This document shows, piece after piece, positions 4,850 to 57,100 of a stretch of DNA of 64,000 bases (positions are counted from its first letter, which is position 1; each line of letters opens with the position of its first letter). Position numbers and translations under genes: made by a program. The stretch covers positions 2,530,501 through 2,594,500 of the forward strand of contig NC_019703.1 in NCBI RefSeq assembly GCF_000317045.1, read 5' to 3'. Below the pieces are notes generated by a model that made no database searches, was not told where the DNA came from, and saw only the letters and a program-made list of their open reading frames with translations. This stretch comes from Geitlerinema sp. PCC 7407. Its GTDB lineage: Bacteria; Cyanobacteriota; Cyanobacteriia; PCC-7407.

Positions 4850-4922
4850 GGGGAATTAGCTCAGCTGGTAGAGTGCTGCGATCGCACCGCAGAGGTCAGG
4901 GGTTCGAATCCCCTATTCTCCA
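4850..4922 (+). tRNA. tRNA-Ala (anticodon CGC)
   Basis: A 73-base cloverleaf: acceptor GGGGAAT/ATTCTCC includes the G3-U70 wobble pair that defines alanine tRNAs, D-arm GCTC/GAGT, anticodon stem CTGCG/CGCAG with loop ATCGCAC, and T-arm AGGGG/CCCCT. Anticodon CGC reads GCG. The anticodon arm contains a complete HIP1 palindrome. A decayed copy of the 3' half of this gene lies at 6989-7028. Confidence 0.97.
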
Positions 4923-5107
4923 TTCTCTCAAAGCCATCAAGTTAGGAATTAGATCACCTATTCACCAGGACACTCAGGGCGTTGCCTAGCTTCTAGCGGC
5001 GGGGGGTGCCATCTTTTTCATAGTCATTTGGGTTATCAGCGACTACCCAGGTCTTCGGTATCCCTTCCCCCGATTGCCATCGGAAGTTCATCCGCCACCC
5101 ACCAGCC

Positions 5108-6145: not shown

Positions 6146-6919
6146 ATGGTCAAACCACAGCCGCCTTCTATGCCCCTGAGACGACAGCCCAAGCAGCAGC
6201 GCAGCCAAAAGCGGGTTGAGCAAATTTTGCGATCCGCAGCCGAGGTGTTTGTAGAGGTCGGCTACGAAGCCGCAACCACTCACATGATTGCTGCCAGGGC
6301 AAAAACGGCGATCGGCTCGCTTTACCAGTTTTTTCCCGATAAACTTGCCGTTTTTCACGCTTTAGAAGCCCGTCACATGGAAAACGTGACGGTCCTTAAC
6401 CAGGAACTATTGCAGTCTGCGGATCTGAAGCGACCGTTTGCGGAGTTTGTCGATCGCCTGGTAGAAGCGCATGTTGCCTATTTCCAAGACCCGATTCCCC
6501 AGGTGGTCTACATTCAGTATTTTGTGGCGCCTCAGCTATTTATGCTGTTTGACGAGACGTTTAATCGTCAGTTGATTGAGCAATACGCGAGCTTCTTGCG
6601 ACAGTGGAATCCAGCATTGCCCATCGAGAAGAGCGAGCGCCTCGCTGAAACGGTTCATCAGTGCTACAACGCCCTACTGCTGCAGGCGTTGAGGGGAGAG
6701 GAACATCAACGGCGATCGCGCTACGAAGAGCTCAAGGCTTTGCTAGTCGCCTATCTAGCCCCCCATGTAGAACCAAAGTCAATGGATGAAAAAGCAACAA
6801 AAGTAATGAAGTGTCATTACTGTCACTCTGACCGCTTGTCGAAGAACGGGCATCGCTACAACAGGCAACGCTATCTATGCAAGGACTGTGGCAAGCAGTT
6901 TTTAGAGCGCGCTGACTAG
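6146..6919 (+). CDS. TetR-family regulator with IS1-type zinc-ribbon tail
   Basis: The 257-residue product has a typical TetR N terminus: RSQKRVEQILRSAAEVFVE, then GYEAATTHMIAARAKTAIGS and LYQFFPDKLAVFHALE. The ligand-binding part runs to about residue 212, where a normal TetR would end. The last about 45 residues are foreign: KCHYCHSDRLSKNGHRY followed by CKDCGKQF, the zinc ribbon that begins IS1-family InsA proteins. The simplest reading is that IS debris replaced the native stop and the frame stayed open. The regulator may still work because the DNA- and ligand-binding parts look complete. It is divergent from, and likely controls, the Rieske oxygenase gene. Confidence 0.85.
   Translation: MVKPQPPSMPLRRQPKQQRSQKRVEQILRSAAEVFVEVGYEAATTHMIAARAKTAIGSLYQFFPDKLAVFHALEARHMENVTVLNQELLQSADLKRPFAEFVDRLVEAHVAYFQDPIPQVVYIQYFVAPQLFMLFDETFNRQLIEQYASFLRQWNPALPIEKSERLAETVHQCYNALLLQALRGEEHQRRSRYEELKALLVAYLAPHVEPKSMDEKATKVMKCHYCHSDRLSKNGHRYNRQRYLCKDCGKQFLERAD
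6782..6919 (+). mobile_element. IS1-family transposase fragment (InsA zinc ribbon)
   Basis: This stretch encodes a CxxC...CxxC zinc ribbon and nothing of the downstream InsA helix-turn-helix or InsB catalytic domain. It is in frame with the preceding TetR gene and ends at a stop codon. No inverted terminal repeats were found around it, so it is a remnant. Confidence 0.6.
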
Positions 6920-6988: not shown

Positions 6989-7028
6989 CTGCGATCAAAA
7001 GTTAGGAGTTCAAATTGCCTATTCTCCA
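6989..7028 (+). pseudogene. Decayed 3' half of a tRNA-Ala gene
   Basis: Aligned with the intact tRNA-Ala, the segment keeps CTGCGATC of the anticodon stem, loses about nine bases, then matches the variable loop, T-arm and acceptor strand at 24 of 30 positions, ending in the identical CCTATTCTCCA. Similarity continues about 12 bases past the tRNA end. Most mismatches are G-to-A or C-to-T. It is either a duplicated tRNA end left by an integrating element or a relic of a tandem duplication. Confidence 0.65.
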
Positions 7029-7065
7029 CTCTCTTAAAGAGCTAACACTCTCCCATATAAAAGAG

Positions 7066-10000
7066 TTAATCATCTTCCAGCAAAAGAGTATTTAACAAGT
7101 TCATCTCACTGGACGCCATAAAATAGCGATTATCAAAAATGAGATCTAGCTGACTCATCGTTCGTTGTCCAACAACCGCTGCCCATGGAAAATCCTGGTA
7201 CTTGGCAACAACCGGCATGACCGTTCCTTGGGAAGCCAGGGCACGTCCTAGAGCATCGCGCCAAGTATTTGGATCCTCAACTTCTTGTTGTCTGATTCCG
7301 TCCTCTAGACTCTTTTGCCAAAAGTGAGGATAGTCCAGAGGCAGGGCAATCACAAGATTATCTGTGCGAGTATCTTGCAAAGTAGAATATTCTCGCGTAG
7401 CGGCATCCTTTTCACGGATAAGCAATCGGTATAACTCTTGTGCTGGACGTCTAAGCTTAGATGGCAAAGCTTTATTCTTCTTTATTCTCTGAAAAATCTC
7501 AAGCAAACTACTACTGCCTTCTTTTACTCCTTTTCGCCAGGTTTCGAAACTAAACTTCTCTTCAGAATTACGACCCTTCCAGTCTTCCATCCAAAAGGGA
7601 CCAATACACGTTACTTTTTCTGGAATGACCAATGTCTCCATTTCTGTTGGAGTAGATAGAGCCAACAAACGACTGGCAGGCCGAGTAAGCGCCTTTGCTA
7701 ATCTTTCAGTAGTGCCATAGTCTACGTAGGAGATCGCACCTCTCTCAGGCGACATGCCTCGGAGATTAAAGTGGCCAAAGAGGCGCTCTGTCAGCTGAGC
7801 AGCTTTCGCAACCAAGGCTTTATCGTCTGGGTGCTGGGCGTCACAAATAAATACTTGAGCTTCTCGCAAAAAATCACGCAGGTCGCCAGACATCAAGCTG
7901 AGCAGTTCTTCATCACCGACAAAGCCAACTGGGACAAAGGCTATTCGCTGACGTCTGAGACCGGCATCTCCCTTGATGCGAGTGTGAATCGTAGACCGCA
8001 ACATGAGCAGCAGCGTCAAAAGGTCGCTGGCTTGGCGTAACCAGCGGCGGTCCCTATCATCAGTCCCCTCATCGATAACAAAATCATTGATCAGCATGAC
8101 CAGTTGCCTGGACTTATTATCTCCAGGAACTGGCTCGCCCGTCGTTGCATCGGTATACGAACCCCGACCCCGATAAATGAGTTGGGCAACCTCCATCAAA
8201 GCTGCTTCAATGTTGAAGCGAGGAATAGATGCGATAATCCAATCCGTTTTGGGGAAGGAAACACCTCTTGCTCCAGAAGAGGTCATTAGGAAGACACGCA
8301 CCTGATCTCGCTGAGGTTCTTGAACCAACTTTAATCGCTCTGCTTCAGGAACACTCTGGTCGATCACTTTGACTTTTTCAGGAGCAAGTACAGGCCGATC
8401 TCCCAAAGTCAAGTTTTGGCAGAGCTGTCGCAAAAAAGCTTTATCTTGAGCAAAAAAGATGAGTTGTTCTGCTCCATTAGCCAAACCTCGCTCAATTTCT
8501 ATCCGAGCATTGTTCAGCAGCTTTTCCGCTGATTGATCTCGTATCGCTTGTCGAATGGATTGGGGTAATCCATCGCTGGTTAAGCCAGGAGTGATAGGAG
8601 CCAGTCGAACACTGTAGTCAACTTTGAGCTGAGATGCTGGGTAGCTATTCGTCATAACATGCAGCACCGGATGTCTCCCTGGCCCTACTTTCATCCGAGT
8701 GCCAGTAACGCGAAAAGCTGAATTGCCCTGAGTAGGGCTGATGAGAACTTTGTCTGGAGCCCGTTCACCTGAATTCAAGTAGCTGTTCAATACCACCTCA
8801 TTGCTGAGAGAGGCATCTGAAATAATAAGCACTACTCGAAACGGACAAGGCTCTCCTTCAAACGGCTCAAGAAATTGCTGATGGAGCCATTCGGCTAACC
8901 GATGACAAAATAGAGCCCCTGCGCCATCGCCAGCCACCTCATCGACCATGGCAATAATAGTGGGAATCTTTTGGGCGAAGATTTGCCGTTCTCGCTTACC
9001 CTCCTGGAGATTGGCCTTTTTAGTAAAGAGATTGCTGAGAGCATCAATCGTTGTCCGGTTTTGAACACCACGATAGCCCTGAATCGCCGCTGTCATCACA
9101 ATTCGGTTAATGGCTGGATTATGTTCCAACAGCTTACGAGCGGAGGTTGCTAAAGTTCTCAAAACCCCTGGTCGAATTTGGGACTGAACGCTATCTTCCC
9201 GTTCATTGCGGGAGCGCTTGTATCGACGGGAGGTGACAATACTGGTATCAATGTTTTGTTCATCTTCGGGTGATACAAAGATAGTGTTGCAGGTGGGATA
9301 AACCAAGTTTGAGATACCATCAACCACCACCGCACTGTCAACCCGACGCGATTTCTGTCCAGACTGGGCTGATTGTTGGTCATACCATTCAGGAGCCGCA
9401 TCAATTAGTTTGGCATTAGATGTCATGGTCAAAATGCCGGTGGGTCTGCCTTTGTCTCGCGCCAACTTGTTGGTAACATCTCGGTTAATCACAACTCGAG
9501 GGCTGACATAGAGAAAGCAGTAACCCTCCTGTTGAGCCAGAAATTGAGTGACTGCCGTCGTCTTACCAATACCGGGGTTACCTTCTAGGGCAAGCACATT
9601 GAGGCGACCGGGCTGAGCCGCTTTCAAGCCTGCCACCACAGCGGCGGCGTGAGCATCTCGCAAGGTCACCTGTTCTTGTGAATCCTGTCGCGAAATAAGA
9701 GCCTGACGTAGATTAGCTTCAGGGGCGTTGCCAAGTAATTCGATGAACTCATCGCTTAGCTGTACTCCTGAGATAACATCTTCTACCGAAAAAAGCTGCG
9801 TGGGATTCGAGAAGTCTCCAATCTGTTCCTGAAAATTGAAATGTAGCAGCTGGCCTGGATCTGGGCTTTTAAGAAGAGGTTTGACCTGGTTTTTCAACTC
9901 AGTCGGCAAGGATCCAAGCAGTTTCCGAAAGACCAGCTGGATCTCCTGCTTCAAAGCATCCGGGGCATCATCGGAGAGGCTCCGAGCCTTCCGATAGGCT

Positions 10001-10935
10001 TGACCCAAAGTAGTCATCAACCGGGCTCGCGGATCTGGTTCAGGCTTCTGGCCGTTGAAGTGAGCCGCTAGGCTTTCTAAACCGTTGGAGGTAACCGCGA
10101 TCGCTCGAACATTACATCCCTGGGAAAATCGTCCCATTGCTGACAGTTGGCGTACTAGCTTCTCTGTGTAGGAGGCAGCTTGACAGAGTTTATAAAGTGG
10201 TTTGTCAGAGCCACTAAAAGCCACTAAGTGATCAGCCAGTTTATGGCTCAGGGTCAATGTTTCGCCTTCCACTTCGGCGCACACTCGTGCAAAGACTCCG
10301 CGGGAATCGAGATATCGGGCGTAGCGATTGACCTCAGCGCAGTGAGGGGCTTCAGTCTTGAAGTCAGCTAGTTTTGCCGGGGCGTTGTAGGAAAACTCTA
10401 GACACAGCAAAAAATCTTTGGACCGTTTACTGCGTCGCCGATCAGTGGCATCTGACTTAAGCCACAACAGAAAGTCAGCTTTGCCCGGACTGCCCTTTTG
10501 GGTAACTGCATCCGGGGGTCCGGAAAGCTGAAAGGCTTGGTGGAATGCGATCGCAGTTTTTTCCTGTTCCTCTTCAAACTTATCTTCCTTACCCGGTAAA
10601 GTCAGAGGGCACCAAAGGGCTTCAAGCTTAGGGTTTTTCGGGGCATCGTGCTTCAAGCACTCCCGCATCGTCGTCCAGCCCAATCCATAGCCAAATATCA
10701 ATAGATGGCGGACTCCGGATTCCAGCCAGTCTCTGACATTGTCATCCGTAACCGATAGAGCTTTCAAAGCTCCTTTGGTGACATCAGAGACTCGGCCAGT
10801 ATGCCAGGGCTCCAAGGCAGGATGGGCCGGAGACAGAAGTTTCTGATAAATCAGTTGGGCAATTACTCCCCGCTGTACAGCAATTTCAAAGATTCGCCCC
10901 CAAGTGGACGCTTGCACAAGGAAGTTATCTTCCAT
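7066..10935 (-). CDS. Large SF2-like helicase with possible N-terminal nuclease domain
   Basis: About 1289 residues. Residues ~150-185 contain ADFLLWLK and, about 20 residues later, FLLCLEFSYN, a D...E arrangement reminiscent of PD-(D/E)xK nucleases but lacking the lysine. A P-loop, GNPGIGKTT, is at 452-460; a Walker B, MVDEVAGD, has D665-E666; motif V/VI-like segments are SSGARGVSF and QLIYRGRG (918-925). Together they indicate an SF2-type helicase or translocase core. The last ~300 residues are unassigned. The start chosen is ATG 10935, which follows AGGAG by eight bases and overlaps the upstream gene's stop by 11 bases. HIP1 density and GC are low compared with neighbours, suggesting transfer. 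A DNA-targeting defence role with the upstream gene is inference. Confidence 0.7.
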   Translation of the reverse strand: MEDNFLVQASTWGRIFEIAVQRGVIAQLIYQKLLSPAHPALEPWHTGRVSDVTKGALKALSVTDDNVRDWLESGVRHLLIFGYGLGWTTMRECLKHDAPKNPKLEALWCPLTLPGKEDKFEEEQEKTAIAFHQAFQLSGPPDAVTQKGSPGKADFLLWLKSDATDRRRSKRSKDFLLCLEFSYNAPAKLADFKTEAPHCAEVNRYARYLDSRGVFARVCAEVEGETLTLSHKLADHLVAFSGSDKPLYKLCQAASYTEKLVRQLSAMGRFSQGCNVRAIAVTSNGLESLAAHFNGQKPEPDPRARLMTTLGQAYRKARSLSDDAPDALKQEIQLVFRKLLGSLPTELKNQVKPLLKSPDPGQLLHFNFQEQIGDFSNPTQLFSVEDVISGVQLSDEFIELLGNAPEANLRQALISRQDSQEQVTLRDAHAAAVVAGLKAAQPGRLNVLALEGNPGIGKTTAVTQFLAQQEGYCFLYVSPRVVINRDVTNKLARDKGRPTGILTMTSNAKLIDAAPEWYDQQSAQSGQKSRRVDSAVVVDGISNLVYPTCNTIFVSPEDEQNIDTSIVTSRRYKRSRNEREDSVQSQIRPGVLRTLATSARKLLEHNPAINRIVMTAAIQGYRGVQNRTTIDALSNLFTKKANLQEGKRERQIFAQKIPTIIAMVDEVAGDGAGALFCHRLAEWLHQQFLEPFEGEPCPFRVVLIISDASLSNEVVLNSYLNSGERAPDKVLISPTQGNSAFRVTGTRMKVGPGRHPVLHVMTNSYPASQLKVDYSVRLAPITPGLTSDGLPQSIRQAIRDQSAEKLLNNARIEIERGLANGAEQLIFFAQDKAFLRQLCQNLTLGDRPVLAPEKVKVIDQSVPEAERLKLVQEPQRDQVRVFLMTSSGARGVSFPKTDWIIASIPRFNIEAALMEVAQLIYRGRGSYTDATTGEPVPGDNKSRQLVMLINDFVIDEGTDDRDRRWLRQASDLLTLLLMLRSTIHTRIKGDAGLRRQRIAFVPVGFVGDEELLSLMSGDLRDFLREAQVFICDAQHPDDKALVAKAAQLTERLFGHFNLRGMSPERGAISYVDYGTTERLAKALTRPASRLLALSTPTEMETLVIPEKVTCIGPFWMEDWKGRNSEEKFSFETWRKGVKEGSSSLLEIFQRIKKNKALPSKLRRPAQELYRLLIREKDAATREYSTLQDTRTDNLVIALPLDYPHFWQKSLEDGIRQQEVEDPNTWRDALGRALASQGTVMPVVAKYQDFPWAAVVGQRTMSQLDLIFDNRYFMASSEMNLLNTLLLEDD

Positions 10936-13900
10936 GCAAATTTCTCCTGTGCAGCACTTGAGCAATATGGGTCAGGACAGCTGGATAGATGAGATGGACT
11001 CGCCCCCGCCGCCGGGAATGAAAAATTTCGATTTCTCCCGCAGCTTCTTTTGTTGTAGGGGAAATCCAGCTGAATGGATCTAGAACAGGAATCAGCTGTC
11101 CGTTCTTGACACCCCGTTCAGCTTCAATGAAGTGTAGCCCTCTAAGCACTGTCAGCAAACATGAGTGTTCTGGAGATTGCCCTTGGGGGTTGAGCAAATG
11201 TTGGCGAGCCCGTTCAGTCCAGTTAATGTTAGTTACTCTCTGATCTGAAACCAAGAAGTACATACAAAAGCCCGATTGGGGCTGTTTATCTTCTTCTACA
11301 ACATGGAGGGTGGCAAAGGTGTAAACCGGAATAATGTCCCGCACCTGCTCCATACCTGTATTACGCAGAAACGTACTGTGGTCACCAGCACTGGCAATTT
11401 CAAACGCAGTTTCTCCTGTTTTCCGTTTGCGAAATCGCGTTGCCGGAAATACATCCCGCAAGAGAGGATAAATCGTCAGATCTGGGAATGTTTGAAAGAC
11501 TTCTTCTAGAAAATTGGCGGGGGCGAGTGCCGAGTTGTGATCAGCAGTGCGGTTGAAATGGCGGCTGCCATAGGAGTGAGACAACAAAATAATGTGCTGA
11601 CATCCCTGGCGCTTTAGGTAACCAATTTCTTCTCGAACAATTCTTTGTTTTTGTAGATCATCTGGGGAGGTCACAATATCGGACTGAGTCCGCTCAGCTC
11701 TTAGCTCATATCCTGAGAGCGGTTGACTAACGGCTGAGGCAATATAGCTTTGGGTAAGAAATAGGGTATTGCGATCGTCCGGATCTAGCCCTGGTATCTC
11801 ATCAGCAGGACGAGTAGCATAGGATATCAGTCCAATTCGCTTAATATCAGGGGAACGATCGGTTTGAATCACCAGAGGGAAGGCACTCACCAGCGCATCA
11901 AAGGTGCCTGACTTTACCCACGGGGTGGAGCGGTTGCTAGGAGCTAAATTGTCTAAGGCAATACCTTGCATATGTACAGAGGTATCCTGTGCCAGGATCG
12001 CTTCAATGGATTGGGAAGCAGCATAGACACAATCATCTCCCGCACTTTTGCTATTTTTGCCAGTTTCCTGGAGACGAAGTATCAAGGTAGTGAAGTCAAC
12101 AGCCGCTTTATCATCCAGGCTTTTCAGCCGTTTGATAATGGCCCATAGGCAGCAATAAGCCAGAATCGTAAAGGCTGTTATGGCAGCAGCGTGCAACTGC
12201 CTGGTGCTATCGTCACCTTTTTCCTGTCGTCGAGTTAGAGTGCGGGTTTCATACTCTAGCTGAATGGCCGATGGTAAGGCCCACGATCTCATTTGAATTG
12301 CAGACTCAGAGGGCTTGTATAACTGATCTTTTTCGGATTGATGGGGAACCCAAATGACTTGTAGCAGCTTGCCCTGGTATAGTCTTTGTGCTTGAAGCGA
12401 TCGCCCCCCCGTCTCCTTCAGCACCAGGTCATACTCTGTCAAATAGGTAGTGACCTTCACAGAAAACAAGAGTTTAGGAACATCGGGTGAATCAGCAATT
12501 TCAATGTGCTGAAACCACTCCACCTGTTCTCGGGACTTGTTTTGAGACCCGACCAGCAGGTCTTTGACACCGGGAGCTGCATGCTCTAGGCGTGACCAGG
12601 CCACGATATCTCGCTTTACGCAAATGAACTGCTGAGCAGTGCGCCGTTGGGCCTGAGCGAAAATCTGGGTGCCTTTGCGTTTGAGTAGGTTAACCAGAGC
12701 ATCAGCGATACTCTGCATAACGTGGGATCGCTCTCGCAATGACTGGATTAACTGTTGAATCCCGGGCTTTCCTTGATGGCGCAACGCTTCAGTACGGGCC
12801 TGAATAGTTGTAGAGAGTTGTTCAGGAGAAATAGACTCCGCAGAACCAGAGAGAGACGGCACAACTACATCCAAGACGATCAGTTCGGCCAAACGTCGAT
12901 AAAGTCCTGATGGGGGCGGTCCAGAATCGTCGTCTTGTAGAAGTATTTCTTCAATCACATCCAGCCGGGCTTCATAAGCGGGCTTGCTGTGCTCAGGATT
13001 CTTACCATTGATGCGAAAGCGATAGCTGACTTCCCGCTTCACTCCATAGCTATTCTGGTCCCGCACCTTTTCTTCAAAAATTTGGGTTTGCCAATCTGGC
13101 CAAACTGACAGACAGGAGAAGAAAGTGGCTTTGTTTAGATAATCTAACAAGTCAAATTCCGCATTCTGGCCGTAGTGAGCAGTTAGATCAACATACAGGT
13201 TTCCAGTTTTGGCGGCCTTTAGCAGGGCCAATACCCGGTCTACATATTCTACCAACCGCTGATTTTCAGCTTGGGTACTGCTGCGGGCATTTTCTGCGAT
13301 CGCCTCCATGATGCGGAAGGTCACACTGAGCCTGACCCGAGATAGCGCTTCATCATCGAGAAAGCGGAGGAAGCGATTGATTTGGCTATCGGCTCGGTGA
13401 TGCTCCTCTTCAAGACTCTTGATGGCATCATCTATATCATCTTCATCACAATCTCGATTTTCTAGGTGAGTCCCAACAGCATCGATCATGTGCTGGAAGT
13501 AGTCGTTTACTTCCACCTGTTCAACAGCGGCCAACACCTTGGCAACAGCTGTTTTTGGCTCTGATTTGCTGGGAGCGCTAGAGTCAAAGGCGAGAGGCTG
13601 AAGATTCGCTTGAAAAGCCTGGTCCTTGAACGTTGCACCGGCAGCTTTAGCCAACTTTGTCAGATGCTGAGCCGGATCGTTGAGCAGCAGAGTAGATAAG
13701 GATTCCGGAGTTGGCAGAGCCTGGTCTAATGCTTGGTTGATTGCCTCCATGAGTTTGTCAACATCGGTGGGCAAATGGGAAGGGTTTCCTTCTGTCAGTT
13801 GCCCGCCTAGCTTAGCTCTGAGGCCAAAGGGGGGAGACTCGAAGTCTCGAATAAAACTACTAGAAGCGTCAGTCTTGAAAGCTTGAAAGCCTGGGGAAGA

Positions 13901-14113
13901 GAAGAGCCGAATCAGCACTGCTGAGGTACAAATCCTTAAGCGGCTTCTTTCAGAGTCAAACCAGAAAAGGGAGCGCTCTTTGATGGTTCTAGAATCAGAA
14001 GGCGTCTGGCTATTTTCGACAGCCTCTGCCAACAGACCAACGAGCTTTGCTAAATCTACAGACGGCTTGAGGGAAGGTGCCTGAATGCTGGCACCCCGTT
14101 CTTGGGACGTCAT
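10925..14113 (-). CDS. Large unrecognised protein, first gene of the helicase operon
   Basis: A 1062-residue protein that I do not recognise. No signal peptide is evident and there are few hydrophobic runs; a short one near the middle (AITAFTILAYCCLWAII) is probably buried rather than a true membrane anchor. An acidic cluster NRDCDEDDIDDAI lies in the first quarter. The C-terminal ~290 residues alternate strands and helices: DIKRIGLISYATRP, HIILLSHSYGSRHF, LTIYPLLRDVFPATRF and a final RVHLIYPAVLTHIAQVL. That pattern is loosely like a nuclease-type alpha/beta fold such as PIWI/RNase H, but no catalytic set can be named. Its stop overlaps the start of the helicase gene (CATGGAAGATAA), so the two are translationally coupled and probably form one complex. 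Confidence 0.6.
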   Translation of the reverse strand: MTSQERGASIQAPSLKPSVDLAKLVGLLAEAVENSQTPSDSRTIKERSLFWFDSERSRLRICTSAVLIRLFSSPGFQAFKTDASSSFIRDFESPPFGLRAKLGGQLTEGNPSHLPTDVDKLMEAINQALDQALPTPESLSTLLLNDPAQHLTKLAKAAGATFKDQAFQANLQPLAFDSSAPSKSEPKTAVAKVLAAVEQVEVNDYFQHMIDAVGTHLENRDCDEDDIDDAIKSLEEEHHRADSQINRFLRFLDDEALSRVRLSVTFRIMEAIAENARSSTQAENQRLVEYVDRVLALLKAAKTGNLYVDLTAHYGQNAEFDLLDYLNKATFFSCLSVWPDWQTQIFEEKVRDQNSYGVKREVSYRFRINGKNPEHSKPAYEARLDVIEEILLQDDDSGPPPSGLYRRLAELIVLDVVVPSLSGSAESISPEQLSTTIQARTEALRHQGKPGIQQLIQSLRERSHVMQSIADALVNLLKRKGTQIFAQAQRRTAQQFICVKRDIVAWSRLEHAAPGVKDLLVGSQNKSREQVEWFQHIEIADSPDVPKLLFSVKVTTYLTEYDLVLKETGGRSLQAQRLYQGKLLQVIWVPHQSEKDQLYKPSESAIQMRSWALPSAIQLEYETRTLTRRQEKGDDSTRQLHAAAITAFTILAYCCLWAIIKRLKSLDDKAAVDFTTLILRLQETGKNSKSAGDDCVYAASQSIEAILAQDTSVHMQGIALDNLAPSNRSTPWVKSGTFDALVSAFPLVIQTDRSPDIKRIGLISYATRPADEIPGLDPDDRNTLFLTQSYIASAVSQPLSGYELRAERTQSDIVTSPDDLQKQRIVREEIGYLKRQGCQHIILLSHSYGSRHFNRTADHNSALAPANFLEEVFQTFPDLTIYPLLRDVFPATRFRKRKTGETAFEIASAGDHSTFLRNTGMEQVRDIIPVYTFATLHVVEEDKQPQSGFCMYFLVSDQRVTNINWTERARQHLLNPQGQSPEHSCLLTVLRGLHFIEAERGVKNGQLIPVLDPFSWISPTTKEAAGEIEIFHSRRRGRVHLIYPAVLTHIAQVLHRRNLHGR

Positions 14114-14350
14114 ATTGTGTGGTCCTCCTTTTTCAGCCTTGCGGCTGCTTCACCTCTTTTAGCTGACCAAGCTAAAGAAGTGGGTTTCATTTCCTACTTA
14201 CGCTTATTATCGCTCGAAAGTCAAGTCTTTTTTCTCAGGGCTGATTCAGTACGTTCAGTCTCAAAACTTTACTTTTTCCTGAGCCGCTCTCACTGTCCAA
14301 GCAGCGATTTAAGAATTTATCTGCATATTTCGGGTGGCAACCATTAAACC

Positions 14351-20116: not shown

Positions 20117-20710
20117 TCACCAGCCCTCGGCATAGAGTCTAGGCGCGGTGTCCGGGTTGTATCGACGACGAATTTCACTGAATTTTTGGGGGTCTGTGAG
20201 ATGGAGATATCCTTCGGCATCGAGGGCGTAGAGACCCGCCTGGTAGCTAGCGGCGATCGCCTGCATCATCGCCGTCAGGCTGGAAAACGCTCGCGTTAGC
20301 GCCCCGTCATCGCAGCCCACGTGAAAGACCGGCGCTGCTGGCACCGCAGTCTCTGTCACCGGCACCACAAAGTATTCTCCATCAAAGTCAAACAGCGGGA
20401 ACACGTGGGCGGGCTGCTGTTCCTGGGTGCGGGCCTGGACCCAAACGTCATCGTTGAGCAAGGCCGCATCGGTGAGGGCAAGATCAAGATCTAAAAAATG
20501 GTGATAGACAAAGAGGCCCGCTTCTTCACCGGAGCCGTTGCGCCAGAGATATAGGTCATAGACTTCTTGGGGCAGCGCAAAGGGAAAAGATCGCAAGTGT
20601 GATTGAATTTCTGTCAGGGAGAGACCTGGCGCCAAGCTGCTGGCCTGTTGGGGAGCATGCTCGAGGAGCCAAGCGCGGATTTCTTCTAGGGCTGTGGTGA
20701 GGGAAGACAT
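20117..20710 (-). CDS. SMI1/KNR4-family protein
   Basis: A 197-residue protein with the SMI1/KNR4 pattern: an early helix with SLTEIQSHLRSFPFALPQEV, then LYLWRNGSGEE, FPLFDFDGEYFVVPV and a C-terminal LTAMMQAIAASYQAGLY. In bacteria this fold appears in immunity proteins of contact-dependent toxin systems and in general binding proteins. No toxin gene is next to it, so an immunity role is not supported. ATG 20710 was chosen over the longer frame because SMI1 homology begins there. Confidence 0.8.
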   Translation of the reverse strand: MSSLTTALEEIRAWLLEHAPQQASSLAPGLSLTEIQSHLRSFPFALPQEVYDLYLWRNGSGEEAGLFVYHHFLDLDLALTDAALLNDDVWVQARTQEQQPAHVFPLFDFDGEYFVVPVTETAVPAAPVFHVGCDDGALTRAFSSLTAMMQAIAASYQAGLYALDAEGYLHLTDPQKFSEIRRRYNPDTAPRLYAEGW

Positions 20711-20984
20711 GGCGCGATCGCCCGGAGGGACTCTCAGATTATCTCCTGTTGGCAGGAGTTCGACCCAGGGCAAACCAAGAGAGATTTGCGCCAAGCAACC
20801 CAATCAATCCTTCATAGATTTTTCAAGGACCAACAGAATTAAGATTCAGAAAACTGAGAGGGCGATCGCTCAGAAATTTCATCCTGGTTTCATCGCGCAG
20901 TGCCATGCTGGCGACAAGGCCAACGGCGCTTGAGCAGTTGCTTTCGCTTCCCGTTGCGCCGAAAAACGTTGGTTATGGCTTGGT

Positions 20985-51238: not shown

Positions 51239-51871
51239 ATGGAATCGATTCTCGGTGATGCCCTCCAGTCCTTTGACCGCCACAGCGGCTGGATTGTCTG
51301 GAATCTCTTTCTCGCTTTTATCCCTCTCGCGCTGAGCTTTTGGCTCTATCGACGCCGCAGCGATCGGCGATCGCCCTTTTGGTGGCTCGGCTTCTTGGTA
51401 TTCATCGCCTTTTTGCCCAATGCGCCCTATCTCCTCACCGACATCATTCACCTGATTCGCGTGGTGCGCTCTGGCTACTCTGCCTGGATCGTCACTCTTA
51501 TTTTTATTCCGCTCCATCTTTTCGCAATTCTCAGCGGCTTCGAGGCCTACGTTATCTCTTTGATCAATCAGCGACACTATCTGCGCCGCCAGGGCGCTAA
51601 ACCCTATATTCTCGCCTCTGAGCTGCTGACCCACGGCCTATGCGCCATCGGCGTTTACCTGGGCCGCTTTCGCCGCTTCAACAGCTGGGACTTTGTGACC
51701 GATCCGGGCAATATCCTCCTGAGCGCCCTCGATGACCTGACCACCAAGCGTCCTCTCTTTGTCATTGTGATTATCTTTGTGGTGATCTCAATTCTCTACT
51801 GGATTTTCAAAGAGATTACCCTCGGCCTGGTTCTGCGCTTCCGCTATGCCCACCTAGACGAAGATTGTTAA
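51239..51871 (+). CDS. DUF1361-family membrane protein
   Basis: A 210-residue integral membrane protein with about six helices. The conserved part FLPNAPYLLTDIIHLI and the later NSWDFVTDPGNIL are typical of the DUF1361 family. Function is unknown. It is monocistronic and followed by a hairpin at 51909-51944. GC content is normal, in contrast to the adjacent reverse transcriptase gene. Confidence 0.85.
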   Translation: MESILGDALQSFDRHSGWIVWNLFLAFIPLALSFWLYRRRSDRRSPFWWLGFLVFIAFLPNAPYLLTDIIHLIRVVRSGYSAWIVTLIFIPLHLFAILSGFEAYVISLINQRHYLRRQGAKPYILASELLTHGLCAIGVYLGRFRRFNSWDFVTDPGNILLSALDDLTTKRPLFVIVIIFVVISILYWIFKEITLGLVLRFRYAHLDEDC

Positions 51872-51908
51872 ATCTTGCCATTGAGAAAAATTTGAGGATT
51901 TTTTTAAT

Positions 51909-51944
51909 AATTGACATAAGAAGACAAAGCTTCCTATGTCAATT
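51909..51944 (+). terminator. Hairpin terminator between DUF1361 and reverse transcriptase genes
   Basis: AATTGACATA and TATGTCAATT form 10 pairs; after one mismatch GAAG/CTTC extends the stem to a six-base loop. It is followed by TTTT on the plus strand. It may serve both convergent genes. Confidence 0.7.
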
Positions 51945-52031
51945 TTCACCAATCAGACAAAGAGTAACTATCTACTTTCAGGCAAAAATTTTCATAAACA
52001 ATCTTGACTTTCATGATGAATATAAAAATAT

Positions 52032-53849
52032 TTAAATTTTTAGATTTTGCAAATACCATAGGTAGATAGGATCTTTGATTCTATTTAACAATTCATTTTT
52101 TAATGATTTAAGATTCAAGGAGTCAATTGTTTCGGAGTTTAAAATATCAATCAAAATCAAAAATTTGCTTAGAGGATATAGCTCGCTCTTGGATTGATGC
52201 AGTATATACAAAATATCACCTTTTGAAAGAGGCCTTGCTCTAATTTCATTCAAGTTGTATAAAATTCTTAAAGATTCTAATTGTCCGGTCTCTGAGAATA
52301 TTTTTTCCATATCCTTATACTTTGAATCTCTAATTCTTGGAATAGTTGCTGCAACCTGCCTAGAAAGAAATCCAGAGTATTTCCAGACATTGACATTGGC
52401 ATCTAAAATTTTGCACAATTCTGATTCACTACCATATTTTGCCAGCAACCAAATACTTGAAAGTAAGTGAGATGATGAGCGATTTGAAATTTTAATTGCT
52501 AAAGAAACGATTTTATTTTTAATTAGAGAATTAGGCGTTATTTTCCACTCCACAAGAAGCTTTGCAACCGAAAATGGAGCAACATCATCTAAGCAGTGAT
52601 AGCTTTCCAGAAAATTTTCTAGGTGATGAAATCGCTTCTCACTAACTCCTAGACTGGCATAATAGCGGAGTATATTTTCTCTCAAGCCTGGACTGCTCTC
52701 AAGTAAATCAGGAACATATTCTTCTAAAAATTCATCTTTGGTCTTGCATGAAATGGTGAAATATCGCTTGTAGACCTTCTCCCATCTACCAGCATTAGAT
52801 AAATCTAGAAATTTTTTAAATCTACCTCGAACCTTTCTCTTTTCATCTTCAATATTTAGTTCTTTTTCTAAGTGTTCATTTATTCGTTTCGACATAATGG
52901 TCAGATATCTATTTTCATTTGGAAGAAAGTATTTTTTCGCATCTTCCGAGGACAAAATTTTTGTTTTCCCTAAATTCAATCTAAGACCTCTTGTAAGCAA
53001 CAGTTCATCAAGCCCTCTCAAAACTTTTTTCGCTGACTCTATATCTTGGACTCCAAAATCAATGTCATCCATCCAGCGAACAAAATTTCCATCAGTCTCT
53101 CCATCAAGATATTTATCTATCTCAAACAAAAAAGCATGGGCTAACAATCGTGGAGCATCAAAATTAATCTGCGGCAATCCGATACCTGACAATGGTAAAT
53201 AGTCAGGTTTCCACATAAAAAAGTCGAGCATAAAAAACAGAAAATCCAGCAAGCATTCATCAAACCTTGCGTAGCTTGCTAAGACATTTCTCAGGCGATC
53301 AAATGAAATGGTATCAAAATAATTAGCCACATCAGTGACAACTACGTAGTTGAAGGAAGTAGAAAACTCATAGATTTTTTTCTGAAATTCGGGCCACAAC
53401 TCCCACCATTGATAGGAAAAGGAATCATCTATATCCTCTTCTGTTTTAAGGTTGCTATGACTTCTACTATAAAAAGCTTTTGGAGAAGGCTGGTTATTTT
53501 TAATATGGGAAGAAAGACGCTCAACAAGAGTCTGCAAAACTACTGCGTCACTTGGAGCTGGTATTTGAATATGTCTACAGACACCATATTTTTTCTCGAG
53601 TCTGATCACATGGGGGGGTTTAGGCCTATACTCATGCCGTAGAATTTGATCCCTAATAACTAAATTAAGAGCGGCATAGTTTCTCTGATAGTCAAAGTAA
53701 TCATGCAAGCACAGTAAATTTTGATTTCTCATGCCTTGTTTAACGATTTTTCGCCAAACTTTATTCATTAATCCTGGCTCAAAACAAGTCTCCAGAGTTA
53801 AAATTCTTTCAGTAAATCTGGGCGTGCTTATTGGAGACATAGTTAACAA
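52032..53849 (-). CDS. Solitary reverse transcriptase, probable defence type
   Basis: A 605-residue protein. RT fingers-palm motifs are present: motif A VVVTDVANYFDTIS with D173, motif B-like GIGLPQINFDAPRLLAHAF, and the catalytic box FVRWMDDIDFG with D261-D262. A basic and helical C-terminal domain (about 330-605) has no intron maturase, endonuclease or retron-specific segment. It therefore falls outside group II introns and probably among the unknown-group/Abi-type RTs, many of which are anti-phage (DRT). The gene is very AT-rich and lacks any HIP1 site, unlike its neighbours. No accessory gene is present. Defence function is inference. Confidence 0.8.
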   Translation of the reverse strand: MLTMSPISTPRFTERILTLETCFEPGLMNKVWRKIVKQGMRNQNLLCLHDYFDYQRNYAALNLVIRDQILRHEYRPKPPHVIRLEKKYGVCRHIQIPAPSDAVVLQTLVERLSSHIKNNQPSPKAFYSRSHSNLKTEEDIDDSFSYQWWELWPEFQKKIYEFSTSFNYVVVTDVANYFDTISFDRLRNVLASYARFDECLLDFLFFMLDFFMWKPDYLPLSGIGLPQINFDAPRLLAHAFLFEIDKYLDGETDGNFVRWMDDIDFGVQDIESAKKVLRGLDELLLTRGLRLNLGKTKILSSEDAKKYFLPNENRYLTIMSKRINEHLEKELNIEDEKRKVRGRFKKFLDLSNAGRWEKVYKRYFTISCKTKDEFLEEYVPDLLESSPGLRENILRYYASLGVSEKRFHHLENFLESYHCLDDVAPFSVAKLLVEWKITPNSLIKNKIVSLAIKISNRSSSHLLSSIWLLAKYGSESELCKILDANVNVWKYSGFLSRQVAATIPRIRDSKYKDMEKIFSETGQLESLRILYNLNEIRARPLSKGDILYILHQSKSELYPLSKFLILIDILNSETIDSLNLKSLKNELLNRIKDPIYLWYLQNLKI

Positions 53850-54110
53850 ATTGATTTTTGAGAAGACTTTTTTATTGTAATTTATTTAAAGAAATCTGCA
53901 AGACCAACTCAAATTAACTACATCTAATATTTAAATTTTCATGTTGATTTTAAATATTGATTCTGTAAGCAATCAATATCTAGAAAAATCATTAAAAACT
54001 CATACTTCTATTTTTTGCCATTCAAGTTTTGCACTTGATCACCTCTTATTTAGGTGTGGAGGTGTCTTTATGCCTGTATATGACAAGAGTCGTGGTAATA
54101 AACTGAACTT
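53850..54110. other. AT-rich leader region of the reverse transcriptase gene
   Basis: About 260 bp of strongly AT-rich DNA with no open gene. Two small inverted pairs occur: CAAGT/ACTTG (54023-54037) and CACCT/AGGTG (54040-54056). Some defence RTs use a structured RNA encoded next to the gene, and this is the natural place for one. The evidence is positional only. Confidence 0.3.
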
Positions 54111-57100
54111 TTAATTTTCCTCAATCTCGTTGGGCAAGCTGAGGATAAAGTGGGTCGCGTTTTCATCGCTGGTAACTCGAATATGGCCGCCGAGGTGTTC
54201 GACGAAGCGCTTGACCAGCGCCAGTCCTAGCCCGGTACCGCCATATTTCCAGGGATCTTGATTGGGAATGCGATAGAACTTATCGAAAATGCGATCGCAC
54301 TCTTCTGGCGGGATCGTCACCCCAGAATTGCTAATTTCAATTTCCACGCGATCGCCCTGCATCTGGGCGCCCAGAGTAATGCTTTGGTGAGATGGCGTAT
54401 ATTTGCAGGCGTTGTGGAGCAGCTCCGAGAGAATGCGCTCTAGATAGGAGAAATCCGTTGAGATATTCACCGGGCGATCGCCCGGACACCGCAGCACCAG
54501 ATCTTGGTGCTGAGCCCGCATTCGCTCCGCAAAGGGCTCTGCCACGTGGGGAATCCAGATACACAGATCCATCGTACCCACAATTAGCGGCTCCGTTCCG
54601 GCATCGAGGCGAGTGAGATCCAGCAGATCATTAATGAGATTAATTTCTCGCTGACCTTCATCTTTGAGCACCTGGAAGTAGCGAGAGATATCTCCCATGT
54701 TGAGCACATCCAGAGACTGGAGCTGCAGCTCTAGCATTTGAGTGGCCATTTTGATATTCGCCATGGGCGTGCGCAGCTCGTGGGAAACGGTGCTCAAAAA
54801 GTCATCTTTGAGCTGATTGAGACGCTCCAGTTCTCGGACCTGGCTTTGGGCGGCCTGATAGAGGCGCGACTGGCGGAGGGCGATCGCGCACTGATTGGCC
54901 ACCTGCTCCACGAGGCGCACCTCCATCTCGCTAAAGCGCTCCTGCTTGTAGCGGAAAAGCCACAGATTTCCCAAGATGCCGCGATCGTCGAAGATCGGGC
55001 ATACCAGAATGGCGTAGCGCTCTAGGGTGCCGCGCAGCAGCGTCCCAGAGGTGAAGCAAAACTGGCAGCACTGCCCCGTCAGAAGCCGCTCATAGATCTG
55101 CGCCTCCATGGGATCGATGAGGGAAGACGATCGGCCCAGGGAGGTCGGCAGAGAGACATTATATTCGTGGGTCACCGTGGAGAGCGTGAAGTCTGCGTTG
55201 TAGAGCGCCGTGTCGCAGCACTCGATGCCCAGGGTTGCGCCCAGGGCATCCACCGCCGTTTGGAGGATCTTGTCTTCATCGAGGGAATCTCTCACCGAGT
55301 CCGTAATTCCCTTGAGAACAGACTCAAAGTAGAGAGACTGTTCTAGCTCGGCGGTGCGCTCTTGGACCTGCTGCTCCAGGGTGCTGTTGAGGGACTGTAC
55401 CTGGGCATAGAGCTCCGACTGCTGGATGGCGATCGCCACCTGGGCCGAGAGCTGCTTCATGAGATTGACCTCCCAGGACTGCCAGCTGCGCGGCGCGGTG
55501 CAGTGATGGGCGATCAGCAGCCCCCAAAGGCGATCGCCTTGGAGAATTGGCACCACCAAATTGGCCTGAACCTGCAAATTTTTCAGCAGATCGACATAGC
55601 AGCTGCGCAAGTGGGGCGCATTGACATCATTGAGAACGCCGACGTGCCCCTGCAAATAGGAGAGATGCCAGTTGTGACGAAAGCAGGGATCATGGATAGT
55701 CCAGCCCATGATCGCCAGGTCAGGAGAGATCACAGACTCCGCTACCACATCCCCACTCCAGTCCGGCTGGAAGTGATAGATCACCACGCGATCGGTATGG
55801 AGCAGCGCGCGGATATCGGCCACCGTCGTTTCGAGGATCTCTTCGAGGTTGAGAGACTGGTGGATGCGCTGGGTGATCGCCCCCACGAGCTGCTCCCGCT
55901 CGGCTTGCTGACGCAGCACTCGCTCAGCCTGCTTGAGAGCCGTCACGTCCCGGCTGACGATCAGCACAGAGTCCACGGTCCCGTCCCCTTTCCACTCCGG
56001 CACCAGGCGCGCTGACCACTCTCGCATGCCGCGGGGAGAGTAGAGCTCAAACTCGTAAGACTGCTCTTGGCCCGTCTCAAACACCCGTCGCACGGCTTGG
56101 TACCAAGGCGTCAGCTTGTCCGCAGAGTGGCCCATCTGCTCATCGGTCCGGCCCATCAAGCTAGCGGGCGAGACGCCGGTCTCACGCTCCAGGCTGGGGT
56201 TGACGTAGACGTATCGCATCTGGCGATCGATCCGGGCGATGATGTCGGGGGAGTTTTCCACCAGGGCGCGAAATTCCCGCTCTCGCTGGCGTAGCTCGGC
56301 CTCTGCTCGGTTGCGGCCTGCGATCTCTTGCTGGAGCTGCTCAATGGTCGTAGCGAGGTTGCGCGTCTGGGCCTCGACGGTCAGCCCCAGTTCGGCGATC
56401 GCCCGCTGCAACGCCGTTTCGGCCTCCTTGCGATCAGTGATATCGATGGAGATGCAGATCATCCCCGCCAGCTCATGATCTTGGTTGAACAGGGGCGAAT
56501 GGGTCACCAAGGCCCAAAACACGCTGCCATCGCGTCGCAACAGCTGCTTTTCGGCCGTCCAGCTTTCGCCTTGAACCATCGACAGCAGCAGCCCCTCGGC
56601 CTCGGCTTGATCCTCCGGCCTCAGGAGCAGCTCTAGCACCTTGCGATCGCGCACTTCCTCAAAGGTCCAGCCGTACAGCCGCGCCGCGAAGTCATTCCAG
56701 TACAAAATGCCGCCCGCCAAATCCGTGGCGATCACCGCGTGATCGACCATCTGCAGCAGCCGCGCCTGGAAGTGGAGGGCCGCCTCAGCCCGCTGGCGCT
56801 CCGAAACTTCTTGCTCAAGCTGCTGATTGGTTGCGATGAGGGCCACAGTGCGCTGATCGACCAAGTCCTGTAGGCGATCGCGATACTGGTAGAGCTCTGC
56901 TTCTAGGCGCTTGCGCTCGGTGATGTCACGCACCACCCACACCACCGATTCAGCGTCCAGGGGAGAGACATTGGCCGAAAACCAGTGCTCGCCCCGATCC
57001 GGCAGGTTCAGCGCATACTCGGTATGGATGGTCTGGCCCAGGTCCAAAGCCTGCTGCGTCACCTGGATAATGTACTTCGCCTCATCCGCAGGCATCACGT

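Follow-up and report, generated by a model that had tools for sequence, protein, structure and literature searches.

A pair of very large, overlapping genes in the genome of the cyanobacterium Geitlerinema sp. PCC 7407 raises the question of whether it forms a defence system and, if so, of what kind. The pair, here called A and B, lies within a stretch of 64,000 nucleotides (contig NC_019703.1 of assembly GCF_000317045.1, positions 2,530,501-2,594,500), which was analysed as a whole and is referred to as the window. A first-pass annotation, made from the sequence alone, had described an operon of two giant proteins and a candidate undescribed defence system. Based on protein models, profile comparisons and a survey of related loci, we conclude that A-B is a real, conserved and unnamed pair of an Argonaute-like protein and a helicase, with guided defence as its most likely role. 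Both open reading frames (ORFs) were found as described (Table 1), as were the 11-bp overlap, in which the TAA of gene A at 10927-10925 falls within gene B, and the good ribosome site within the end of gene A. An alternative start of gene B, a TTG at 10965 upstream of the tabulated ATG, is possible.

The protein encoded by gene A was matched by no curated family in Pfam, PADLOC or NCBIfam, the PDB sequence search with it was empty, and PF02171 found no match anywhere in the genome to which the window belongs. An AlphaFold model of A built from 48 sequences (pLDDT 84, pTM 0.85) was compared with known structures using Foldseek. All 50 of the 50 PDB matches listed are Argonaute/PIWI entries, with E values from 3.1e-5 to 1.6e-3 and probabilities of 0.98-1.00, and the viral fold library gave no significant match. 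The two hallmarks of the Argonaute/PIWI fold, MID and an RNase-H-fold PIWI lobe, are found in A at the level of the fold only, by AlphaFold and Foldseek. Gene A thus appears to encode a MID-PIWI protein that sequence alone cannot recognise, and the description of two unrecognised giants held for the reading frames but not for A, which is Argonaute-like by its modelled fold.

The N-terminal half of A, to which no domain could be assigned, carries conserved FLDDEALxRVR and REVSYRFRxNGxNP motifs. The MID-like region contains the motif Y697-x3-Q701, followed by Q716-G717 and then by the basic K734 (K or R among homologues); R680, Q716 and G717 are present in 48/48 sequences and Y697 in 47/48, while the second motif position, Q701 in A, is Q, K or H across homologues. 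It is this Y...QG...basic pattern that leads us to predict a guide pocket here. The PIWI domain is probably catalytically dead, with the aspartates of the DEDX set lost, because the strands 759-769 and 840-845, which by strand order and without superposition occupy the positions of the catalytic aspartates, keep no acidic residue in the model; the first of them instead conserves Y765 (47/48), R768 and P769. Near an extension of the predicted PIWI sheet, R893 is invariant and E905 nearly so.

Gene B is an SF2 (superfamily 2) helicase. In Pfam, PADLOC and NCBIfam only generic Helicase_C/ATPase models matched it, and the PDB sequence search yielded nothing beyond fragments of DEAD-box and clamp-loader type and some other weak hits. 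A model of residues 1-1200 (pLDDT 85, pTM 0.81) matched MrfA, Brr2, Lhr and other SF2 helicases in the PDB, with E values from 4.6e-8. The P-loop, the DE box and the QLIYRGRG motif lie at the residues given in the first-pass annotation and show little or no variation across 41 homologues. The core fold is therefore shared with MrfA/DUF1998, Brr2 and other SF2 helicases, whereas the N- and C-terminal regions differ; no conserved cysteine cluster of the iron-sulfur (FeS) type was present in the 41 homologues, so B is not DinG-like. The N-terminal segment shows a PD-(D/E)XK-like layout, with E17 on a helix, D154 on a strand, E180-x-S182 on a further strand and a helix bearing H198. E17, D154, E180 and H198 are each conserved in 41/41 homologues and S182 in 40/41, and the nuclease D...E pair that had been considered possible is probably D154 with E180. 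As judged from the model, the segment may act as a nuclease whose lysine has moved to another position, for which the invariant K245 and K249 are candidates, or be an inactive remnant.

To the question of whether the two proteins belong together the survey of related loci gave a clear answer. Relatives of protein A occur in 14/386 sampled genomes of the phylum, and an alignment search (one genome per species) found 64 loci in cyanobacteria, in beta-, gamma- and alphaproteobacteria and in a small number of bins labelled as other phyla; relatives are also borne by plasmids of Cupriavidus, Acinetobacter and Acetobacter. When ORFs were clustered across loci, A was present in 67 loci, B in 63 and the next family in 8, and no third gene was common to them. 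In 60/60 scored loci B lies downstream of A on the same strand, mostly -4 to +5 bp apart. The distance matrices of A and B correlate with r = 0.98 overall and 0.98-0.99 inside the two main groups, and the overall value was reached in 0/2000 permutations. The pair is inherited as a unit that comprises only these two genes. Two candidates for additional components were rejected: an HNH gene adjacent to the pair in one Acinetobacter locus is not conserved, and a third ORF in Acetobacter turned out to encode the C-terminal end of a helicase that is split there. B was unmatched in a phage search, and among viral contigs it had no relatives, A having a single partial one.

Some copies are decayed or broken (L011, L012, L026 and L027). 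Patchy occurrence together with sometimes broken copies is as expected for immunity genes. The last two of these loci are from Nostoc and carry an interrupted gene B (765+585 and 858+453 residues), the halves being separated in L026 by other ORFs. In Thioploca (L072), an ORF of about 338 residues (13276-14292) lies between A and B, which are 1209 bp apart. Closely similar copies of gene A were also seen in bins labelled Propionibacterium, planctomycete and Pseudomonadota (L063, L069, L078) and likewise in Thiobacillus and Rhizobium bins (L044, L045), which suggests either recent transfer or mis-binned contigs.

A second cyanobacterial subtype, in which A-like proteins of 890-1170 residues are paired with a related helicase, was found at loci L013, L014, L018, L019 and L132-L143. 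Its A protein and that of the window are homologous along almost their entire length (hhalign 99.5-99.8%, E to 6e-28), most members of this subtype retain the QG of the MID-like region, and with 22/194 genomes of the phylum it is commoner than the type of the window; some genomes have both. Examples of this subtype lie on conjugative plasmids of Trichormus, Tolypothrix and Nostoc, and on the plasmids of Trichormus, Tolypothrix, Microchaete and Aulosira the helicases are 97-100% identical. Downstream of the pair on Trichormus variabilis plasmid C (L018:11474-19003) we observed a gene for a Sacsin-domain protein (PF25794, E 5e-20; TmtA-like in PADLOC), then one for a very large protein, the two being a possible further defence operon.

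Many known defence families lie close to A-B homologues. Among ORFs within 6 kb of the pair, matches at E<=1e-15 were obtained to Shango SngABC, Azaca ZacABC, the cyclase, E1-E2, JAB and TRIP13 components of CBASS, Hachiman, Shedu, a helicase of BREX, DRT, type I, II, IIG and III restriction-modification (RM) systems and HEC-01; assigned to individual loci were SngA (L056), ZacC (L041), a type III system (L044) and HmaC (L036). A control set of 105 ORFs drawn at random from two cyanobacterial genomes hit mostly generic models, with a single Cas12k among them. The siting of A-B homologues among defence genes is thus recurrent, as a tally set against random ORFs; no P value for enrichment is given because the scan counts families, not loci.

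Taken together, we consider it likely that the A-B operon is a two-component guided immune module, in which a dead Argonaute-like A acts with the SF2 helicase B against invaders. In such a module a short guide would be anchored by its 5' end in the MID-like region of A, and A, its catalysis lost, would only recognise the complementary strand of the invader. Target-bound A would then recruit or activate B, which would unwind the invading plasmid or phage DNA and, provided that the N-terminal segment of B has activity, also degrade it.

Several results weigh against this interpretation. The fold matches of A are low in TM-score, 0.17-0.23 over the query with large root-mean-square deviations, and the best target-side TM-score is 0.43, to a lobe of AGO2; because of these low scores the kinship with Argonaute is to be read as one of fold and domain in a strongly diverged protein and not as close similarity. 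Profile alignment by hhalign found no relation of A to 20 cyanobacterial prokaryotic Argonautes (pAgos; 0.2%) or to 4 PIWI-RE proteins (probability <=0.3%), and the outcome was the same when the second subtype alone, or both subtypes combined, were compared with these proteins. In B, the usual position of the catalytic lysine of the nuclease-like segment is occupied by S182, and the segment was assigned from its layout and not from a fold match of its own to a nuclease. The neighbour result is a tally without matched statistics, many of the neighbours are not defence genes, and those immediately beside the pair in the window are not defence genes either.

The proposal of a candidate undescribed defence system stands insofar as Pfam, PADLOC and NCBIfam gave no match beyond the helicase, the pair is conserved and defence genes are found nearby; it had, however, missed A as Argonaute/PIWI and, since gene A encodes a divergent protein of this kind, A-B is not without precedent. 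ApsAB and DdmDE are both pairs of an Argonaute-like protein and a helicase-nuclease that act on plasmids (PMC11096173; PMC12904381). DdmDE comprises a DNA-guided inactive pAgo and a helicase-nuclease (PMC12904381), and the logic of a guided Argonaute that passes its target to a helicase, described for DdmDE (PMC12904381), has been proposed for ApsAB (PMC11096173). ApsAB of E. coli ST38 is active on plasmids and inactive on eight phages, and ApsAB-like systems, reported across proteobacteria and cyanobacteria, occur in islands with Shango (PMC11096173).

A-B could accordingly be a distant member of ApsAB/DdmDE in which the gene order is merely reversed, and ApsAB is indeed its closest counterpart in kind, each consisting of two genes, one for an atypical Argonaute-like protein and one for a helicase that carries a nuclease-like domain. 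The two functional components are the same, Shango is a neighbour of both, ApsAB-like systems are reported in cyanobacteria, and the MID motif of ApsB, Y[X]3K[X]nQG[X]nK (PMC11096173), resembles the Y-x3-Q/K/H...QG...K/R of A. Nevertheless, we regard membership as unlikely. ApsA carries a C-terminal nuclease (PD-(D/E)XK) and the motifs GFGKS/DELH/SAT/QAVGRVER (PMC11096173), unlike B with its GNPGIGKT, DE and QLIYRGRG and its N-terminal nuclease-like segment; the ApsA motif VI pattern was matched once in 386 cyanobacterial genomes, about chance level. Further, A matches whole Argonaute lobes, whereas ApsB reportedly lacks the RNase H fold of PIWI (PMC11096173), and the Argonaute gene comes first and the helicase second in all 60 scored loci, the reverse of apsA-apsB. 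Measured against the published description, A-B thus has neither the gene order nor the helicase motifs nor the C-terminal nuclease of ApsAB. DdmDE shares the proposed action, the guidance of a helicase(-nuclease) to invading DNA by an Argonaute that has lost catalysis, but differs in that the Argonaute-like protein is much larger in A-B. Neither A nor B was matched to DdmDE in PADLOC or NCBIfam, although the presence of DdmD and DdmE models in the copies used is unconfirmed, and DdmDE is absent among the listed fold matches of both proteins.

Improbable as well, in our estimate, is a role outside immunity, with A-B serving as a module for DNA or RNA processing, repair or plasmid competition on mobile elements and A as a scaffold that no longer binds guides. 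Relatives on conjugative plasmids are compatible with such a role, and Med13, for which such a loss of guide binding has been suggested, is an example of an Argonaute fold with a diverged nucleic-acid channel (PMC12477606). The patchy distribution, the decayed copies and the recurrent defence neighbours fit immunity better, however, and in both subtypes the majority of members retain the QG of the MID-like region. Finally, we hold it very improbable that A-B is a divergent pPIWI-RE system, a three-gene arrangement of a PIWI-RE protein, a DinG-type helicase and a partner with a restriction-endonuclease fold (PMC3702460), which A-B resembles in its divergent bacterial PIWI-like protein, its helicase, its possible restriction-endonuclease-like fold and the R893 and E905 of A, because PF13032 has no match over threshold in the genome of the window, the hhalign probability is 0.3% or less, a third gene and the FeS cysteines of DinG are missing and R893 is lost in L016 and in the second subtype.

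Beyond the guided immune module itself, a broader claim can be made, which we advance tentatively and place a little below an even chance: that both subtypes together make up a separate branch within the Argonaute superfamily, so far unrecognised and equipped with a dedicated SF2 helicase, active in guided immunity, missed by sequence-based defence annotation and present in ~10-15% of sampled cyanobacterial genomes, as estimated from 14/386 genomes for the subtype of the window and 22/194 for the second, as well as in many proteobacteria. Such a branch would set the two subtypes apart from pAgos, PIWI-RE, Med13, DdmE and ApsB, with ApsAB and DdmDE compared by description only. Among these, the long and short pAgos (PF02171) share the Argonaute fold with A in the absence of a sequence or profile relation to the 20 cyanobacterial ones. 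The family is undescribed in the literature searched, in which coverage of subscription papers and bioRxiv preprints is thin.

Base composition bears on how the pair reached this genome. The few HIP1 sites (GCGATCGC) that had been taken to suggest transfer were recovered as 4 in the A-B block, where the density in the remaining window predicts 21.5 (Poisson P about 5e-6). The GC content of the block is 0.49 vs 0.59 in the remaining window, and GC at third codon positions (GC3) is 0.46-0.47 for A and B vs 0.56-0.81 in six other sampled genes. These values and the patchy occurrence support acquisition of the block by transfer; nonetheless, the cyanobacterial members form a single clade, and a recent transfer into cyanobacteria from other phyla is therefore unsupported. 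The decayed tRNA copy noted beside the block is real, corresponds to the 3' end of tRNA-Ala and its flank, and sits immediately downstream of gene B. As a general trait of A-B loci, adjacency to a tRNA was rejected on the survey of loci. A scan for promoters and terminators found sites no more numerous than in shuffles.

Table 1. Position of the A-B genes, their parts and other features in the window
Feature	Position	Strand	Basis or description
Gene A	10925-14113	minus	ORF, 1062 residues, with Shine-Dalgarno site
Ribosome site of gene A, AAGGAGG	14124-14130	minus	sequence
Gene A N-terminal half, residues 1-540	12494-14113	minus	alpha-helical and beta (AlphaFold), without assigned domain
Gene A MID-like region, about residues 610-750	11864-12286	minus	conservation; boundaries inferred
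Gene A PIWI/RNase-H-like region, about residues 756-1062	10928-11848	minus	strand/helix order, conservation, fold match
Gene B	7066-10935	minus	ORF from ATG 10935, about 1289 residues, SF2-type helicase
Ribosome site of gene B, AGGAG	10944-10948	minus	within end of gene A, ahead of ATG
Gene B PD-(D/E)XK-like segment, residues 1-222	10270-10935	minus	helix/strand order, conservation
Gene B Walker A GNPGIGKT, residues 452-459	9559-9582	minus	invariant in 41 homologues except N453 (40/41)
Gene B motif II DE, residues 665-666	8938-8943	minus	41/41
Gene B motif VI QLIYRGRG, residues 918-925	8161-8184	minus	41/41
Decayed tRNA-Ala copy (3' end and flank), att-like	6996-7039	plus	44 bp, 80% identical to 4890-4933
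SUKH-1 (SMI1_KNR4) domain protein	20117-20803	minus	match under curated cut-off
TnpB/Cas12f-like protein, 410 residues	43098-44330	plus	PADLOC Cas12f, E 1e-59
Reverse transcriptase, 605 residues	52032-53849	minus	full-length match to defence family UG13a, E 2.8e-225

Elsewhere in the window, the UG13a reverse transcriptase lies 38 kb from the A-B pair, in a HIP1-free stretch (51367-54291). The TnpB/Cas12f-like protein probably stems from an IS605-type element. Members of the SUKH-1 family are often toxin immunity proteins. A TetR-family regulator (6146-6919, plus strand), flanked by the tRNA-Ala gene on one side and the decayed tRNA copy on the other, shows an additional C-terminal zinc-ribbon like that of InsA of IS1 (weak Pfam match), and its end has possibly been replaced by an insertion-sequence fragment.

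A guided defence role thus being most likely for A-B, and with a fair chance that its family is a separate branch of the Argonaute superfamily, the consequences would be the following. A widespread Argonaute-based system would have been overlooked because its sequence has diverged past the curated models. The combination of dead Argonaute and helicase seen in DdmDE and ApsAB would have originated or spread repeatedly and in different gene orders, and new guided helicases would become available for study. Finally, the system could be one of the reasons why cyanobacteria resist plasmids and phages, a resistance that in practice hampers genetic work on them.

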